Below, one piece after another: positions 2,644 to 56,606 of a stretch of 56,606 nt of DNA. A program made the position numbers and the translations under genes. Below the pieces are notes generated by a model, which saw only the letters and a list, made by a program, of their open reading frames with translations, ran no database searches and had not been told where the DNA came from. How positions within the stretch are numbered: the first letter of the stretch is position 1; every line of letters begins with the position of its first letter. Source of the stretch: Desulfovibrio sp. (lineage in GTDB: Bacteria; Desulfobacterota; Desulfovibrionia; Desulfovibrionales; Desulfovibrionaceae). The stretch lies in the NCBI GenBank assembly GCA_017450275.1, contig JAFSVD010000019.1, forward strand, positions 1 through 56,606, written 5' to 3'.

Positions 2644-4632
2644 TTAACACGGATTCATATCCTGTCCCTCAGCCGTAACAGCAGCCTGAGCTTCGCGCTC
2701 TAAAGTTTTCTTGTTTTTTGATCCCTTAGGCCGACCCCTTCCCCGCTTGGGTGTGGAATCTGCAACAGCAGCCTGAGCTTCGCGCTCTAAAGTTTTCTTG
2801 TTTTTTGATCCCTTAGGCCGACCTCTTCCCCGCTTGGGTGTGGAATCTGCAGCAGCAGCCTGAGTTTCGCGCTCTACTGTTTTCTTGTTCTTCGATCCTT
2901 TAGGCCGCCCCCTTCCCCGCTTGGGTGTGGAATCTGCAGCAGCAGCCTGAGTTTCGCGCTCTACTGTTTTCTTGTTCTTCGATCCTTTAGGCCGCCCCCT
3001 GCTTCTTTTCTGTTTAGAGTCTGAGAATTCCGCTTCTACAGAGGCATCACCATCGCTTTTTTCAAACTGAGTAACTTCTTTTAATGGTTGATCAACTGCA
3101 TCAGGAGGAGTGAAACAGAGCTTATCTCCGGTTATAGGCAATGAATACGGACATTCAATATCTAAAGCTTTAAAAATGTCATTTTCTGTTTTCTCGAGAG
3201 GATCGACAACAAGTTTTCCCTGATATCGCGTGCTGCCTAGTAGTTCTAATGCTTTAAGAGTCTCCCATGTACTTAGATCTTTCGATTTCATCTTGATATG
3301 AAGTAGTGTCACGACAGTAGCTGCTATAAATGACAGTAACAGGTGGCCTCTAACAGTTTCTTCAGTCCAGACTCTTAATGGCAAAATCTTTGTATAGTTT
3401 TTCAGAAAGTCAAATAGCTGTTCCGCAGCTTGACGCTGGTAATAACGGGGTAAGATCTCTTCACAGGGATACTCCATTCCGGATACTAACGCGAATATCC
3501 CCCCTTTCTGTGTTAGCTCGTACACTTCGTCATCTGTGAGTTTCTTTTTTTCAGCCTTTTTGGAAAGGCTTTTTATTTCATCAGCTGTGCGCTCTACATC
3601 CTTTCCAAGATACAACCATGCATGTTTATCTTTATTCTTTCCTACAAAAATCTTCTTTTTCTTAATAAATACAAATCTTCCATTATAATTATAGAAATTT
3701 TCCCTGTCTTCAAGAGAATCTATCTCATCATTAATCATGCTTTTTAATTCTAAATCATTAGATTTCACTCTTGATATATAATCAATATTACAATTACAAT
3801 CTTCATCATAGAATAAATCAAGATTTGATGCGCAATTATAGCCAGCATCAATGATACATGACTCAATCTCAACTTTCATAGCTTTCATGGTTTCAAGAGT
3901 AAATGAGAGAGTCGAGACGTCAACAGTATTTCCTGAGACAGATTTAAAGAAAAGGGGGATTCCTCCTTTCTGCACTACAGCGATGAAACGGATGGCGACC
4001 TTGACCGCGCCATTTTGAATGCCAGGACGTGACAGAGGAATCTTGATGCTGTTTTCGAGGGCCGTGCTGTCAATAAGAATATTTCTATCAGGGTTGAGGT
4101 GTTCTAAAACCCATGCAAGCTGCTTTTCAAGGTAGTTCTGCACACTATCTTCGGAGCCGATGGTCGCAAGCATTTCGCTTATTCTTTGAGATGCAAGGTT
4201 GGCTTTTGGATAGAGCAACCTCGCAAGACCAGACTGATACCACCTTTCTGCGTACTTGTTGGCAAGCGGGGAGAGAATATAGAACAGAACCATGGATCGG
4301 AGAGTATGCTTGTTCCCAAAGGGTAGGCTGTCGATGAGTTCCACCATACCTGTTTTGTGCAAAAAGGCATTGAGAAGGAAAGATCCTCCGAATGGTATGG
4401 CTCTGTTTTTGGCACCATCGAGCGGATAGACAAAATCGGAAGGCGGTTCACCGTACTGACGGGATTGGACGTCATAGGTAAAAAATCCTCGTTGAGGTGT
4501 GAAGAATACTCCTAACTGCCGATCGGCAACCTTGCCCAGATAGGTTGCTTCGGTTTTGACAGTCGATTCGATTCGTTTCGATTCTTTTACGTAGGCGTAT
4601 TCTTTGTTCTTGCCTTTGTACGTGATGAACAT
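2644..4632 (-). CDS. IS4-superfamily transposase with C-terminal AT-hook repeat array
   Basis: 662-residue DDE transposase. The catalytic aspartates are likely D188 (in NILIDST) and D262 (in IIDAGYN). The YREK signature typical of IS4-superfamily enzymes is at Y397, R400, E404 and K411, placing it near the IS1634 group (usually about 550-600 residues). The extra length is a C-terminal tail (about residues 540-653) of four near-identical 29-residue units. Each has the AT-hook core RGRPKGSKNKK, which in other proteins binds the minor groove of AT-rich DNA. The start ATG at 4632 has a GAGGGGG site a few bases upstream. It is the only clear gene of the element, and no internal frameshift is visible, so it may be active. 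Confidence 0.88.
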   Translation of the reverse strand: MFITYKGKNKEYAYVKESKRIESTVKTEATYLGKVADRQLGVFFTPQRGFFTYDVQSRQYGEPPSDFVYPLDGAKNRAIPFGGSFLLNAFLHKTGMVELIDSLPFGNKHTLRSMVLFYILSPLANKYAERWYQSGLARLLYPKANLASQRISEMLATIGSEDSVQNYLEKQLAWVLEHLNPDRNILIDSTALENSIKIPLSRPGIQNGAVKVAIRFIAVVQKGGIPLFFKSVSGNTVDVSTLSFTLETMKAMKVEIESCIIDAGYNCASNLDLFYDEDCNCNIDYISRVKSNDLELKSMINDEIDSLEDRENFYNYNGRFVFIKKKKIFVGKNKDKHAWLYLGKDVERTADEIKSLSKKAEKKKLTDDEVYELTQKGGIFALVSGMEYPCEEILPRYYQRQAAEQLFDFLKNYTKILPLRVWTEETVRGHLLLSFIAATVVTLLHIKMKSKDLSTWETLKALELLGSTRYQGKLVVDPLEKTENDIFKALDIECPYSLPITGDKLCFTPPDAVDQPLKEVTQFEKSDGDASVEAEFSDSKQKRSRGRPKGSKNKKTVERETQAAAADSTPKRGRGRPKGSKNKKTVERETQAAAADSTPKRGRGRPKGSKNKKTLEREAQAAVADSTPKRGRGRPKGSKNKKTLEREAQAAVTAEGQDMNPC
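2674..3015 (-). repeat. 87-bp tandem repeats encoding four AT-hooks
   Basis: The anchor GCAGCCTGAG recurs at 2681, 2768, 2855 and 2942, an exact period of 87 bp (29 codons). Each unit encodes a TPKRGRGRPKGSKNKKT-type segment followed by an alanine-rich linker. The units differ mainly by pairs of silent or conservative changes, indicating recent expansion. Confidence 0.85.
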
Positions 4633-18750: not shown

Positions 18751-18827
18751 TGGCAGGGCAGGAGGGATTCGAACCCCCAACATGCGGTTTTGGAGACCGC
18801 CGCTCTAGCCGTTAGAGCTACTGCCCT
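18751..18827 (-). tRNA. tRNA-Trp (anticodon CCA)
   Basis: 77 nt including encoded CCA. Acceptor AGGGCAG/CTGCCCT, D-arm, anticodon arm GCGGT-CTCCAAA-ACCGC, and T-loop TTCGAAT with a GGGGG/CCCTC-type stem. It lies between rpmG and secE, a common location. Confidence 0.97.
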
Positions 18828-18871
18828 GCGCACCACTTGGAGAGAACTCCAAGTGGAGAGTTTGTCTTGTC

Positions 18872-19021
18872 TTACTTTGTCTCGCGATGCACTGTCATCT
18901 TCTTGTCCCAGGGACAATATTTTTTGATCTCGAGACGGCCAGTGGTATTTTTCTTGTTTTTCTGCGTGCTGTAATTACGGCGTTTGCACTCCGTGCAAGC
19001 AAGAATAATGTTGATACGCAT
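18872..19021 (-). CDS. rpmG: 50S ribosomal protein L33
   Basis: 49 residues, located between tuf and tRNA-Trp. The sequence contains CTECKRRNY and KKYCPWDKK, so three of the four possible zinc-binding cysteines are present and the last is aspartate. I recall the same CPWDKK variant in Desulfovibrio relatives. It starts 17 bases after the tuf stop and is probably co-transcribed with it. Confidence 0.93.
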
Positions 19022-19038
19022 GAAACCACCAGGCCTTT

Positions 19039-20232
19039 TTACTCAATAATTTCTGTCACAACGCCGGAACCAACGGTGTGGCCACCTTCGCGGATAGCAA
19101 AACGCAATTGCTCCTGCATGGCGATAGGCGCGATCAATTCCACGATGAACTGCGAGTTGTCGCCGGGCATAACCATCTCAACGCCTTCAGGCAAGGTGAT
19201 GACACCGGTGATATCGGTTGTTCTGAAATAGAACTGGGGACGATAGCCCGAGAAGAACGGGGTATGGCGGCCACCTTCTTCCTTGGAGAGAACGAGCACC
19301 TCGGCCTTGAATTTCTTGTGCGGGGTGATGGACTTGGGTGCAGCGAGCACCTGACCGCGTTCGACTTCGTCGCGCTTGGTACCACGCAAAAGCACACCAA
19401 TATTGTCGCCAGCTTCGCCTTGATCCAAGAGTTTGCGGAACATTTCGACGCCGGTGCAGGTGGTCTTTTGGGTCTCTTTGACGCCCACGATTTCCACTTC
19501 GTCGCCGACCTTGATCACGCCGCGCTCAACACGACCCGTGACAACGGTGCCACGACCGGAGATGGAGAACACGTCTTCAATGGGCATAAGGAAGGGTTTG
19601 TCGATTTCGCGGACGGGCTCAGGAATATAGTCGTCGCAGGCATTCAGAAGCTCGTGAATGCAGTTGGCGGCTTCGGCTTTGGGATCGTCGCATTCGAGGG
19701 CTTTCAGCGCGGAACCACGGATGATCGGGGTGTTGTCGCCGTCAAAATCGTATTTGGACAGCTCTTCACGCACTTCCATCTCGACCAGATCAAGCAATTC
19801 CGGATCGTCAACCAGGTCACATTTGTTCAAAAAGACGACGATGCGGGGCACACCCACCTGACGGGCGAGCAGGATATGCTCACGGGTCTGCGGCATGGGG
19901 CCGTCGGTGGCAGCCACAACGAGGATGGCACCATCCATCTGGGCAGCACCGGTGATCATGTTCTTAATATAGTCAGCGTGGCCAGGGCAGTCGACGTGGG
20001 CATAGTGACGTTTCGGGGTCTCATATTCCACGTGGGCTGTTGCAATGGTGATGCCACGTTCTTTTTCTTCAGGAGCGTTATCGATCTGATCGTAGGAAAC
20101 AAATTCGCCGCCTTTTTCCAGGCTGGCAATCTTTGTGATGGCTGCTGTAAGCGTGGTTTTCCCATGGTCGATGTGACCAATGGTACCAATATTCACGTGT
20201 GGTTTTGTACGTTCATATTTCGCTTTTGCCAT
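19039..20232 (-). CDS. tuf: Translation elongation factor Tu
   Basis: 397 residues, full length. G1 motif GHIDHGKTT (residues 18-26), G3 DCPGHAD, G4 NKCD, then the two beta-barrel domains ending [10 protein letters not shown]. Delivers aminoacyl-tRNA to the ribosome. It lies downstream of tRNA-Thr, -Tyr and -Gly, the same arrangement as the E. coli tufB operon. A 411-codon open frame on the opposite strand is only its shadow. Confidence 0.98.
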
Positions 20233-20386
20233 TCTACATCTCCTAATCTAAAAAATGGTTACAACGTTTTTGCGCAAGAGAAATCCTACTCACGCATTCG
20301 TCTAAATGCATAAGCCTTTTTTCAGTCACCAAATCTCACCTAGGAGATTGAAATTGCAGGAGAGTTGCCGAGGAAATGGTGGGATG

Positions 20387-20462
20387 TGGAGCGGGAAACG
20401 GGATTCGAACCCGCAACCCTCAGCTTGGAAGGCTGATGCTCTAGCCGTTGAGCTATTCCCGC
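20387..20462 (-). tRNA. tRNA-Gly (anticodon TCC)
   Basis: 76 nt with encoded CCA. Acceptor GCGGGAA, anticodon loop CTTCCAA, T-loop TTCGAAT. Part of the tRNA-tuf cluster. Confidence 0.97.
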
Positions 20463-20560
20463 ATGAGGGCTTTTGCCCGAAAACCATGTCCCGTAGTTTT
20501 CGACGTGAGTCTCCTACAGTCAAGGCATATGGCAAAATGAATCTGTGGGTCAGATTGGGA

Positions 20561-20646
20561 TGGTGGAGGGGGGTGGATTTGAACCACCGAAGTCGTACGA
20601 CGACAGATTTACAGTCTGTTCCCTTTGGCCACTCGGGAACCCCTCC
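20561..20646 (-). tRNA. tRNA-Tyr (anticodon GTA)
   Basis: 86 nt with CCA. Class II tRNA with a long variable arm (CGTCGTACGACTTCG), acceptor GGAGGGG, and anticodon loop CTGTAAA. Confidence 0.97.
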
Positions 20647-20664
20647 AGAAGACACCACAGTGCG

Positions 20665-20740
20665 TGGAGCTGGCGATGGGACTTGAACCCGCAACCTGCT
20701 GATTACAAATCAGCTGCTCTACCAATTGAGCTACGCCAGC
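20665..20740 (-). tRNA. tRNA-Thr (anticodon TGT)
   Basis: 76 nt with CCA. Acceptor GCTGGCG, anticodon loop TTTGTAA, T-loop TTCAAGT. First gene of the tRNA-tuf-rpmG-secE-nusG transcript; only 55 bases separate it from the prmC stop, so its promoter must lie there or further upstream. Confidence 0.97.
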
Positions 20741-40424: not shown

Positions 40425-41384
40425 TTATTTGTTGGCGTTTTCGAGCAGCTGCGGCAGCGACATGGCTTCGGGTTCAACGCGAGGGAGTGACTGGACGGCT
40501 TGTTGCGGTACGGCTTGGGATGGAGGAGGTGTTGATACCACGTCGCTTTCATCGACAGCAGCAGGTTCCTCTTCCTGCGATCGTGCGATAACTTGGTTGA
40601 CGGCCGGAAGACGATCCTGGGGGACAAGGTTGCGTTGGATCAACCATGCAAGAAATTTGAGCGAAGGCACATGGTGCGGGGCAATACCCAGAGCCATAAG
40701 AAGGTTGTCGATACATTTGGGAATGTTGTTGCCTTCAAGATAGGCGCGTGCCACATTCATATAAAGATTTTCGTCGCTTTGCGTCAAGGCAATCGCCCGT
40801 TCGTAATAGGCAATGGCCTGGGGAATCATCTTATTTTTGCGAAGTTGAATACCAAATTCATTGAAGAGATGTTTATGCTCGGTTTCAAAGGCGCTGTCTA
40901 ATTTGACAAGGCGGTCGAAGATGTTTTGGGCTTTACTGGTATCGCCCCGTTCAAGATAGGTCAAACCAATGCCAAAATTGGCGCGCACATTGTCGCTGTC
41001 GACCTTGAGGGCTGCGGAATACTGGTGTTCCGCGCTGAAGTGTTCGCCTTTTTGGAGATGATCGTCGCCTTTGTTGATGGTATCGTTCAGCTTCTGCATC
41101 TTGGGAAAGACGGAACTTTGATAGAATTCCGGCTCAGGCGCGAACTTGGTGAGCAGATCCTCCATGGAGATCGTGCGTTTGGGACCGCTCGGCACGTAGT
41201 TGGTGTTGAGGGGCTGACAGACGATTGCATCTTCTTTTTGGTCGACAAACCAGAAGGTTTTGTGAACGCTTTTTCTGGTTGTTGTGCCTGTGCCGACCTT
41301 GCGCACTTCCTGGGAGGAGAAGACCCCGTGGATGCGGGGCGTTTTTGTTTCAGCTTGCATATCGTTGGATTGGTTTTGGTGCAT
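40425..41384 (-). CDS. Tetratricopeptide-repeat protein
   Basis: 319 residues. The N-terminal 90 residues (IHGVFSSQEVRKVGTGTTTR, FWFVDQKEDAIVCQPLN) are a conserved head that I recall from Desulfovibrio proteins of unknown function. About four TPR units follow (AEHQYSAALKVDSDNVRANF, YLERGDTSKAQNIFDRLVKLD, AIAYYERAIALTQSDENLYMN). The last 60 residues are low-complexity, rich in Pro, Gln and Glu. No signal peptide. AGGAGA lies 8 bases before the ATG. Operon with recJ. Confidence 0.85.
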   Translation of the reverse strand: MHQNQSNDMQAETKTPRIHGVFSSQEVRKVGTGTTTRKSVHKTFWFVDQKEDAIVCQPLNTNYVPSGPKRTISMEDLLTKFAPEPEFYQSSVFPKMQKLNDTINKGDDHLQKGEHFSAEHQYSAALKVDSDNVRANFGIGLTYLERGDTSKAQNIFDRLVKLDSAFETEHKHLFNEFGIQLRKNKMIPQAIAYYERAIALTQSDENLYMNVARAYLEGNNIPKCIDNLLMALGIAPHHVPSLKFLAWLIQRNLVPQDRLPAVNQVIARSQEEEPAAVDESDVVSTPPPSQAVPQQAVQSLPRVEPEAMSLPQLLENANK

Positions 41385-41404
41385 AGTACGGTTCTCCTAA
41401 AATA

Positions 41405-41596
41405 TCACGCCACTTCTGTTCTTAAAACGCGGTGCACGGTAGCGAAGATTCGCTGATCGCAGGCTGCGCCGATACTTTGCTCGCTGTTGCATTTTTTTGT
41501 GAATCTGATTTTCAAAAGCCAACGGACATGCCCGCAGCGTTTTGTTGGATATAATGTGTTTCCGTTATATCCTTTTACGTAAACTTTTGCATTCAT
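41405..41596 (-). pseudogene. IscB-like nuclease, N-terminal fragment only
   Basis: Starting at ATG 41596, residues 2-26 (NAKVYVKGYNGNTLYPTKRC, then GHVRWLLK) match the N-terminal PLMP/RRXRR segment that opens IscB-type OMEGA nucleases (pattern: hydrophobic strand, G-x-x-L-x-P-T-x-R, then R-x-L-L-K). After that the usual VV…PFTIQL continuation is missing, and the frame runs through unrelated sequence to 41405. The RuvC and HNH parts of a normal 400-500-residue protein are absent. The fragment directly follows the structured RNA at 41629-41788, as an IscB gene follows its omega-RNA. Weak ribosome site. Confidence 0.5.
41547..41572. repeat. 8-bp inverted repeat in the IscB fragment
   Basis: GGATATAA (41547-41554) and TTATATCC (41565-41572), 10 bases apart. 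It could also serve as an operator for the TPR-recJ operon, whose promoter must be in this gap. Confidence 0.3.
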
Positions 41597-41628
41597 AAGG
41601 CAAAATAGTAAAATTAAACACAAAACAC

Positions 41629-41788
41629 AGCACGAGAAAGTGCTGGTAGCGTTGCCATTCCCAGATCTACCAGCTTGGCATCATCGATAGGGGGAACGGG
41701 TAAGAAGGCTCGCCTTACCCTGTCGTATCACGTCTTTGTGTGCCACACTTCATCTCAACTCGCATCCAAGCAAAGGCTACGATGCGGG
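41629..41788 (-). ncRNA. HEARO / omega-RNA-like structured RNA
   Basis: Read on the minus strand, the structure starts directly after ATGA (41789-41792). It contains: a first hairpin CGCATC/GATGCG (41761-41786); a long helix GGGTAAG/CTTACCC (41698-41720) stacked on CGATA/TGTCG with an 8-base bulge; an 8-bp stem GCTGGTAG/CTACCAGC (41642-41674) whose loop TGGCA can pair with TGCCA just outside the stem, forming a pseudoknot; and a final CAGCAC/GTGCTG hairpin. The position upstream of an IscB-type ORF, the ATGA boundary and the pseudoknot fit HEARO RNAs, now known as omega-RNAs that guide IscB. No covariance search was possible. Confidence 0.6.
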
Positions 41789-41829
41789 TCATACATTGCT
41801 ATTTTCTCGAATATGAATGAAATGTAACA

Positions 41830-42510
41830 CTAGGATAAGGCTATTTCGTCAAGGATCAATGCTGTGGCTTTTTTGGGATCCTGGGCTTCGAGGATGGGGC
41901 GTCCAACGACAAGATAGTCACAGCCCAGAGCCACGGCTTCTTTCGGACTTGCAACGCGGCGCTGGTCGTTGGCGCAGGCCCATGCGGGACGGATGCCCGG
42001 GCACAGGCATAAAAGATGGGGATGGCGGGCTTTGATGGCTGGCACTTCCTTGGGCGAGCACACAATACCGTCGAGATGACTTGTTGCAGCAAGGTCTGCC
42101 AGATCACTCGCAAAGAGCGACGGATCCTTGGCAATACCCGGCATTTCGTTGGGACCAAAACTGGTGAGAGCTGTCACCCCGAAAAGAAGGGGGGTTGCGG
42201 CCTTTTCTTTTGCCGCAACAGCGCCAGCCAGCATGCGCGCTCCTCCTTGGCAGTGGAGCGTGAGCATGGAAACGCCAAGGGATCGAGCCGAACACACGGC
42301 TCTTTCGACCGTATGGGGTATGTCGTAGAACTTGAGATCGAGAAAGACAGAGAGATGGCGATCGAGAAGCTTTTGGATCAAGGCCGGTCCATAGCGGGTG
42401 AACATTTCCATCCCCACCTTGCACCAGCGAAGCTGGGGGACAAGGGTGTCCACGAGGGCGATGGCCTGGGTGTCACTGGGTAGATCAAGAGCCAGGATCA
42501 GTTCAGCCAT
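41830..42510 (-). CDS. pyrF: Orotidine 5'-phosphate decarboxylase
   Basis: 226 residues from ATG 42510, with AAGG upstream. N-terminal LILALDLPS, catalytic DLKFYDIPHTVERA (Asp-Lys-x-x-Asp, about residues 57-70), and C-terminal VVGRPI. Converts OMP to UMP. Overlaps the 3' end of gmk by 13 bases. No clear intrinsic terminator follows; the omega-RNA-like element begins 41 bases after its stop. Confidence 0.96.
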   Translation of the reverse strand: MAELILALDLPSDTQAIALVDTLVPQLRWCKVGMEMFTRYGPALIQKLLDRHLSVFLDLKFYDIPHTVERAVCSARSLGVSMLTLHCQGGARMLAGAVAAKEKAATPLLFGVTALTSFGPNEMPGIAKDPSLFASDLADLAATSHLDGIVCSPKEVPAIKARHPHLLCLCPGIRPAWACANDQRRVASPKEAVALGCDYLVVGRPILEAQDPKKATALILDEIALS

Positions 42511-56353: not shown

Positions 56354-56481
56354 CCTCGTATAGTAAACGAAATAAGCTTTTTTACAAAGGCTTTTTCTAA
56401 AGTATTGTCATTGTTTTTAGAAATATTAAAGATATTATCTAAATATAAAAACTCTATTCAGAGAGAATATTACGGTTCTCC

Positions 56482-56517
56482 AAAAATATCCCACCACTAA
56501 GGTGGTTGGATATTTTT
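56482..56517. terminator. Terminator-like hairpin
   Basis: AAAAATATCC/GGATATTTTT plus ACCAC/GTGGT around a TAAG loop; T-runs on both strands. Might end a gene entering from the right. Confidence 0.55.
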
Positions 56518-56533
56518 GCTCGTAATCAGCCTC

Positions 56534-56563
56534 AGTTCAGATGGCATTTTTGCCATCTGAACT
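56534..56563. repeat. Perfect 13-bp hairpin
   Basis: AGTTCAGATGGCA and TGCCATCTGAACT around TTTT. Confidence 0.6.
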
Positions 56564-56573
56564 ACGTTGGCAG

Positions 56574-56598
56574 GGTTTGTACGCTCTTTGTACAAACC
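56574..56598. repeat. 9-bp hairpin
   Basis: GGTTTGTAC and GTACAAACC around a 7-base loop. Confidence 0.55.
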
Positions 56599-56606
56599 GA
56601 TAAACG

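Follow-up and report, generated by a model that had tools for sequence, protein, structure and literature searches.

The window analysed here, the whole 56,606-nt stretch, is one contig (C65) of a 1.84-Mb genome assembly, 74% complete and split over 70 contigs, which often break at the repeats of two families, here called A and B. Both are families of OMEGA (IscB) elements: a family-A nuclease gene (IscB-A) lies on contig C17, and a family-B one (IscB-B) on contig C69. The gap between the pyrF and TPR-protein genes of the window holds pieces of both. Its features, from pyrF towards the TPR gene, are:

41830..42510, minus strand: pyrF (open reading frame), upstream of the gap and in the same orientation as the element
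41830..41833, minus strand: CTAG flanking the left side of the element, including the pyrF stop codon (from the sequence)
41830-41832, minus strand: pyrF stop codon TAG, abutting the first base of the element, 41829 (from the sequence)
starting at 41829, minus strand: 5′ terminus of the element, its left inverted repeat TGTTACATTTCATT (by repeat comparison)
41595..41829, minus strand: family-A omega-RNA remnant (81-86% identity to other copies; covariance model R1)
41741-41754, minus strand: GATGAAGTGTGGCA, able to pair with TGTTACATTTCATT as the second strand of the first stem
about 41647..41663, minus strand: site of 17 missing nt, which in the IscB-linked copy form the loop of a stem together with its 3′ arm (by alignment to that copy and to the model)
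41507..41596, minus strand: what remains of the N-terminus of IscB-A, MNAKVYVKGYNGNTLYPTKRCGHVRWLLK (83% identical to the C17 IscB-A across 30 aa)
41414..41509, minus strand: family-B IscB bridge-helix fragment, in the frame 41400-41522 (86% DNA identity over 96 nt to the C69 IscB-B; PF14239)
41387..41414, minus strand: family-B terminal repeat of 28 nt (100% identity over 28 nt to the family-B right end)
41393..41398, minus strand: AGGAGA, Shine-Dalgarno-like, within the family-B terminal repeat (from the sequence)
40425..41384, minus strand: TPR-protein gene (open reading frame, ATG at 41382-41384), downstream of the gap and in the same orientation as the element

Elsewhere in the window, Rfam models place four tRNA genes at 18754-20740, also on the minus strand.

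TPR homologues were found in 30 of 40 relatives searched, and pyrF lies directly upstream of TPR at 18 of 19 relative loci (the remaining one begins where its contig does). In these relatives the aligned parts of the two genes are 52 to 249 nt apart, and the insert is absent; the element was therefore inserted into an old gene pair. The CTAG at its left side fits the pattern of 4-bp duplicated targets, or TAMs, of family A (see below). The right-hand copy of this target has been lost from the chimeric window element, which leaves its own insertion with no second copy to compare.

A DNA search with 41560-41830 gave 35 matches in the same genome. Over most of its length the omega-RNA remnant is 81-86% identical to copies on contigs C37, C48, C17, and C30, and specifically 81% identical to the leader of the intact, OgeuIscB-like gene on C17. 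A covariance model (R1) trained on ten other copies, with the window copy excluded, detects 41638-41756 on the minus strand with 122.4 bits (E 5.7e-33). The window thus carries a scaffold that shares its ancestry with the omega-RNA of a complete IscB locus but has one stem arm deleted, and the structured minus-strand RNA proposed for this gap in an earlier, sequence-only reading is confirmed by homology. That reading had assigned the RNA to the HEARO family, which we reject: RF02033 does not reach its gathering score (83 bits) anywhere in the window, relaxing the limit to E 10 brings up no match in 41350-41850, and the nearest IscB is OgeuIscB-like. RF02033 also stays below its gathering score at the OgeuIscB-like loci L077 and L127-L129, so the absent HEARO match is no argument against an omega-RNA. 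A viral contig (L130) sharing 17 identical bases with the omega-RNA was discarded as a chance match within a phage gene.

The coding part of the gap is more degraded. The small open reading frame at 41405-41596 had been read as opening with the N-terminal segment of IscB, which holds for its first 30 aa; as a whole it has no IscB match in either Pfam or NCBIfam, owing to a change of frame within the remnant. The frame at 41400-41522 (minus strand) matches both PF14239 (RRXRR; E 6.5e-9, at profile positions 84-116, not the N-terminus) and the IscB model NF040563 (E 1.1e-9). The window copy follows family A (C17 type) up to 41509 and family B thereafter: this second part is 86% identical to an internal segment of the C69 IscB, and the closing 28 nt match the family-B right end without a difference. 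What is left of an IscB protein with RuvC and HNH is the 30-aa N-terminus and a scrap of bridge helix. The IscB/omega-RNA origin and the loss of the nuclease body were thus correctly recognised, and the similarity to IscB goes far beyond chance, by homology; the description of the gene as “decapitated” inverts the situation, since the head was kept and the body lost. As judged from its sequence, the window element is a chimeric, degenerate copy of an IscB element, and an ordinary one as a single locus.

Intact IscB genes and sister RNAs had been named as things to look for elsewhere in the genome, and both are present. The IscB-A gene on C17 is intact (504 aa, no stops; PF14239 E 2.3e-38; NF040563 205 bits, cut-off 175) and is preceded by a leader RNA with a fold z-score of -6.28, forming a complete IscB locus; the second family has a complete IscB-B of 424 aa on C69; and there are many further copies. 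Among the 395 genomes of the phylum sample, IscB-A was found at E 1e-45 only in its own genome. As a single query in genome and viral scans it retrieved only distant relatives; an alignment query retrieved loci L127-L129, at 34-38%.

The helices of the window RNA had been described as undamaged, which does not hold. One stem, retained by the IscB-linked copy, has lost its 3′ arm in the window to a 17-nt deletion whose point is near 41658/41659; other decayed copies carry different deletions in the same region. The window fold has a z-score of -2.22, with 4 of 200 shuffles as good, and those of C17 (-6.28) and C69 (-5.84) are both stronger. Some structure does survive: all 13 pairs of the first stem are intact, and the fold beats 196 of 200 shuffles. 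Together, the stem deletion, the weaker fold, and the foreign tail point to an omega-RNA in decay. Because of this deletion and the joining of two families, a working trans-acting omega-RNA from this locus appears unlikely.

Family A has at least 50 merged loci in this genome (21 retain both ends, 11 just the 5′ part, and 18 just the 3′ part), a lower bound, as not all first-look candidates were scored. Its omega-RNA has no match in 60 relatives, and its exact left end none in viral_contigs. Most of the complete copies are 60-660 bp long; assembly of complete elements is prevented by contig breaks at the repeats. The left and right ends (TGTCACATTTCATTCATATT and CAATGTGAATGAAATAGACCA) are imperfect inverted repeats of each other: at its positions 7-29, the left end agrees at 87-91% with many of the right ends. 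The 4 bp flanking the two ends are identical in 10 of 19 end pairs, where shuffling gives a mean of 2.4 (none of 100000 shuffles had as many); the other nine pairs have no exact 4-bp match. The duplicated bases are mostly N-W-A-G. NWRR is found in the right flank in 29 of 39 cases at offset 0 and in 37 of 39 at offset 1 (the 39 being the 40 found minus one left end read backwards), and at 13.5% of window positions. OgeuIscB is reported to need the TAM NNRR (PMC9640706), and engineered forms of it to prefer NWRGNA (PMC13180657); the family-A right flank fits the OgeuIscB TAM, as a match of sequence only.

Several family-A copies (C16, C26, C33, and nearly C15) have in common a 17-nt omega-RNA deletion different from that in the window. 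This indicates that nuclease-less forms have spread on their own, and also that a working omega-RNA was not needed for their spread. At L080:280-753 (C48), two right-type ends lie inverted to each other with CTAG on both sides.

The left end of the element has a second identity, as one strand of the first omega-RNA stem. In the C17 and C69 folds, the GATGAAGTGTGGCA strand is paired to the 13-14 nt with which the element begins, and in an alignment of 15 copies 148 of 158 cells pair in this stem, compared to 39 to 98 of about 155 when the strands are slid by 1-3. Most of these positions hardly vary, so that what is seen is pairing and not covariation. The OgeuIscB scaffold begins with a 14-bp guide adaptor hairpin, according to PMC9640706, and the family-A first stem resembles it. 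As the folds place the terminus of the element within this stem, the guide should come mostly from the flanking DNA. The sequence-only reading had the RNA begin immediately after an ATGA; in fact the element starts at 41829, after the pyrF stop, and the ATGA lies about 40 nt inside it. A guide within the element, with the scaffold starting at this internal ATGA and the same fixed guide in all copies, was considered and is rejected by the folds. The border between guide and scaffold is uncertain by several nt, because TGGCA in the 3′ strand of the first stem can alternatively pair with a downstream TGCCA (74 of 75 cells); RNAalifold prefers this second pairing, with almost no covariation. Consensus folding of all 15 copies is weak, because most of them are decayed.

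The same design, with the left repeat as the 5′ strand of the first stem, is found in family B (inverted repeat of 38 nt, 87%) and at the phage locus L128 (23 nt, 91%). A generic inverted-repeat test was applied to 13 IscB loci, of which 11 could be scored (L127 and L099 were unparseable). Family B on C69 scored 26.0 (null maximum 14.0) and L128 18.0 (null maximum 13.0; under another scoring, exceeded by 1 of 200 shuffles). The other nine scored loci were not outstanding, including the C17 copy of family A (9.0, with the 95% point of the null at 12.0), so it is the alignment of many copies that supports the family-A repeat. Upstream of L127 and L128, the RNA model of family A gave no convincing match, and its match at L129 (11.2 bits, E 0.18) was set aside as noise, an equal score being obtained inside the L134 IscB gene. 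On the viral contig of L128 (IMGVR_UViG_3300013426_000064), at 2787-4516, the OgeuIscB-like gene lies inside the 23-nt repeats, with ATATTAG flanking on both sides. On another viral contig, the OgeuIscB-like element of L129 has a direct repeat at its two boundaries (about 2743-2776 and 4423-4460), each side holding the palindrome GTTCCGAATCAGAAC; these direct-repeat ends are a different end design from that of the inverted-repeat elements.

Family B has a HEARO-type RNA, scoring 55.0 (C43), 43.1 (C69), and 39.5 (C34) bits with RF02033, below the cut-off of 83. At L079:1057-2992 (C69), its 38-nt inverted repeats surround the HEARO-like RNA and the intact IscB; no target duplication is evident for this copy. 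A left terminal repeat and the start of a family-B omega-RNA also lie at window positions 56470-56606 (plus strand), ended by the contig end, and contigs C58, C45, C43, C16, and C3 likewise break about 50-140 nt into a family-B left end, as expected of near-identical recent copies.

Both families tend to lie just ahead of genes. For family A, a Shine-Dalgarno-like sequence plus a start codon, opening a reading frame of at least 80 aa, lies no more than 45 nt beyond 17 of 38 usable right ends; the same arrangement of Shine-Dalgarno and start was found at 129 of 1171 motif-matched window sites, and leading away from 0 of 26 left ends. In family B, where ends were classed by inner context, each of the ten classifiable right-type ends carries AGGAG, terminates 2 nt before an ATG, and is followed by nTATG and a reading frame of 75-499 aa. 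The corresponding nTATG follows 3 of 19 left-type ends (one with a reading frame of only 4 codons) and 5 of 7 unclassified ends, which include the window and C63 chimeras; among the 42 family-B end matches, those keeping no terminus could not be scored. Many different genes have a family-B right end 2 nt before their start codons (L140-L149, L159, L017). In the window, too, the family-B repeat terminates 2 nt ahead of the TPR start codon, and its AGGAGA, placed 9 nt ahead of the annotated ATG, is the sole evident Shine-Dalgarno sequence there.

We consider it probable that a mobile OMEGA (IscB) element has left a degenerate, chimeric copy between pyrF and TPR, within the 5′ leader of the latter, with its family-B end as a putative Shine-Dalgarno sequence. 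The 5′ half, consisting of the omega-RNA and the first 30 codons, comes from the OgeuIscB-like family A, and the 3′ end, an internal scrap and a terminal repeat, from the second IscB family, B. Family A would have multiplied in this lineage by moving as a terminal-inverted-repeat element and duplicating a 4-bp target (N-W-A-G), most of its copies having been internally deleted, left without a nuclease, and presumably mobilised in trans, with one intact IscB-A gene remaining. The remnant sits in the TPR leader, where the family-B AGGAGA would offer a ribosome site from which, judging by its position, TPR translation may be initiated; the window omega-RNA probably no longer guides a nuclease, and the element is then dead as a cutter.

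Other roles for the RNA can be envisaged. The same genome does contain an intact IscB-A with conserved catalytic positions, and a stand-alone window omega-RNA that loaded this C17 protein could target the 3′ end of pyrF in insert-free cells and so favour its own retention. The fully paired first stem, the 122 bits of the scaffold against a model of other copies, and the many copies without a nuclease would all fit such a function, but with a stem arm deleted, a fold weaker than those of C17 and C69, and a family-B tail, we find it very unlikely; the spread of C16, C26, C33, and nearly C15 despite their common omega-RNA deletion also speaks against it. Alternatively, the remnant may have been exapted as a regulatory 5′ untranslated region of TPR, independent of IscB, as its orientation, its place directly upstream, and its possession of the only evident TPR Shine-Dalgarno sequence might suggest, along with the recurrence of this arrangement at many genes. 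Set against this, the insertion is not seen in relatives, so that there is no sign of conservation, and the window copy is decaying; this seems rather unlikely. As to a HEARO (RF02033) RNA with a truncated IscB, the genome does have HEARO-type copies, and another starts at the end of the window, but given the failure of RF02033 to match at this locus and the OgeuIscB-like character of the closest IscB, the idea is scarcely credible.

No Y1 transposase (PF01797) was found in this genome (74% complete); among 14 control genomes, 5 yielded a match. For family A we infer mobilisation by a DDE-type transposase. An IS630-like reading frame (C64:129-1085; L114/L123) adjoins a second class of family-A right ends. 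This fragment matches NF033545 weakly (E 1.3e-4, 21.5 bits, with a cut-off of 100 bits), and its catalytic motifs are not recognisable by eye; as complete elements are unassembled too, we ascribe no part in family-A movement to it. IS630 transposons are known for duplicating TA, not 4 bp.

It seems possible, though we hold it tentatively, that OgeuIscB-type IscB elements can travel as terminal-inverted-repeat, target-duplicating (DDE-like) transposons. In such an element the left repeat would double as the 5′ strand of the guide-adaptor stem, the target bases that become duplicated would be the TAM, and translation-initiation sites would be preferred for insertion. Families A and B would then insert in sense orientation just upstream of genes, rebuilding or supplying their Shine-Dalgarno sequences, and act as portable omega-RNA 5′ untranslated regions. 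Such a design would tie together the end of the transposon, a stem of its guide RNA, and the motif at its target, and a preference for start sites would account for some 50 tolerated insertions in a small genome; the window copy would be a decayed example, whose end looks like a ribosome-binding site for a host gene. Few IscB genes lie beside a TnpA transposase, as PMC9755519 states for the HEARO nucleases. Families A and B with their inverted repeats, and A with its TAM-matching duplications, offer a testable non-Y1 route. No such IscB elements are described in the parts of the open-access literature covered (including PMC6452270 and PMC8987985).

Among known systems, the closest is OgeuIscB (structures 7xht, 7utn, 8csz), to which the C17 IscB-A is related at E 6e-106, with 45% identity over the aligned part, conservation of E196 and the HYHH motif, and the RuvC and HNH positions kept. 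In both, the leader RNA lies upstream of the IscB gene; the family-A scaffold is likened to the OgeuIscB omega-RNA through published stem coordinates only, and the window copy differs in having no nuclease. HEARO RNAs (RF02033) are likewise structured RNAs just upstream of IscB-type reading frames, and family B is of this kind; the window RNA, without an RF02033 match, is not. ISC and IS200-IS605 transposons also carry IscB and have non-autonomous copies moved in trans. The ISC transposons of Kapitonov et al. reportedly insert without target duplication and use a Y1 transposase; family A differs in its 4-bp duplications (10 of 19 end pairs), and no Y1 was found in the genome as far as assembled (74% complete). 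In its short copies, inverted repeats, target duplications, high copy number, and lack of a transposase of its own, family A has the properties of a MITE, from which it differs in carrying an omega-RNA instead of arbitrary filler.
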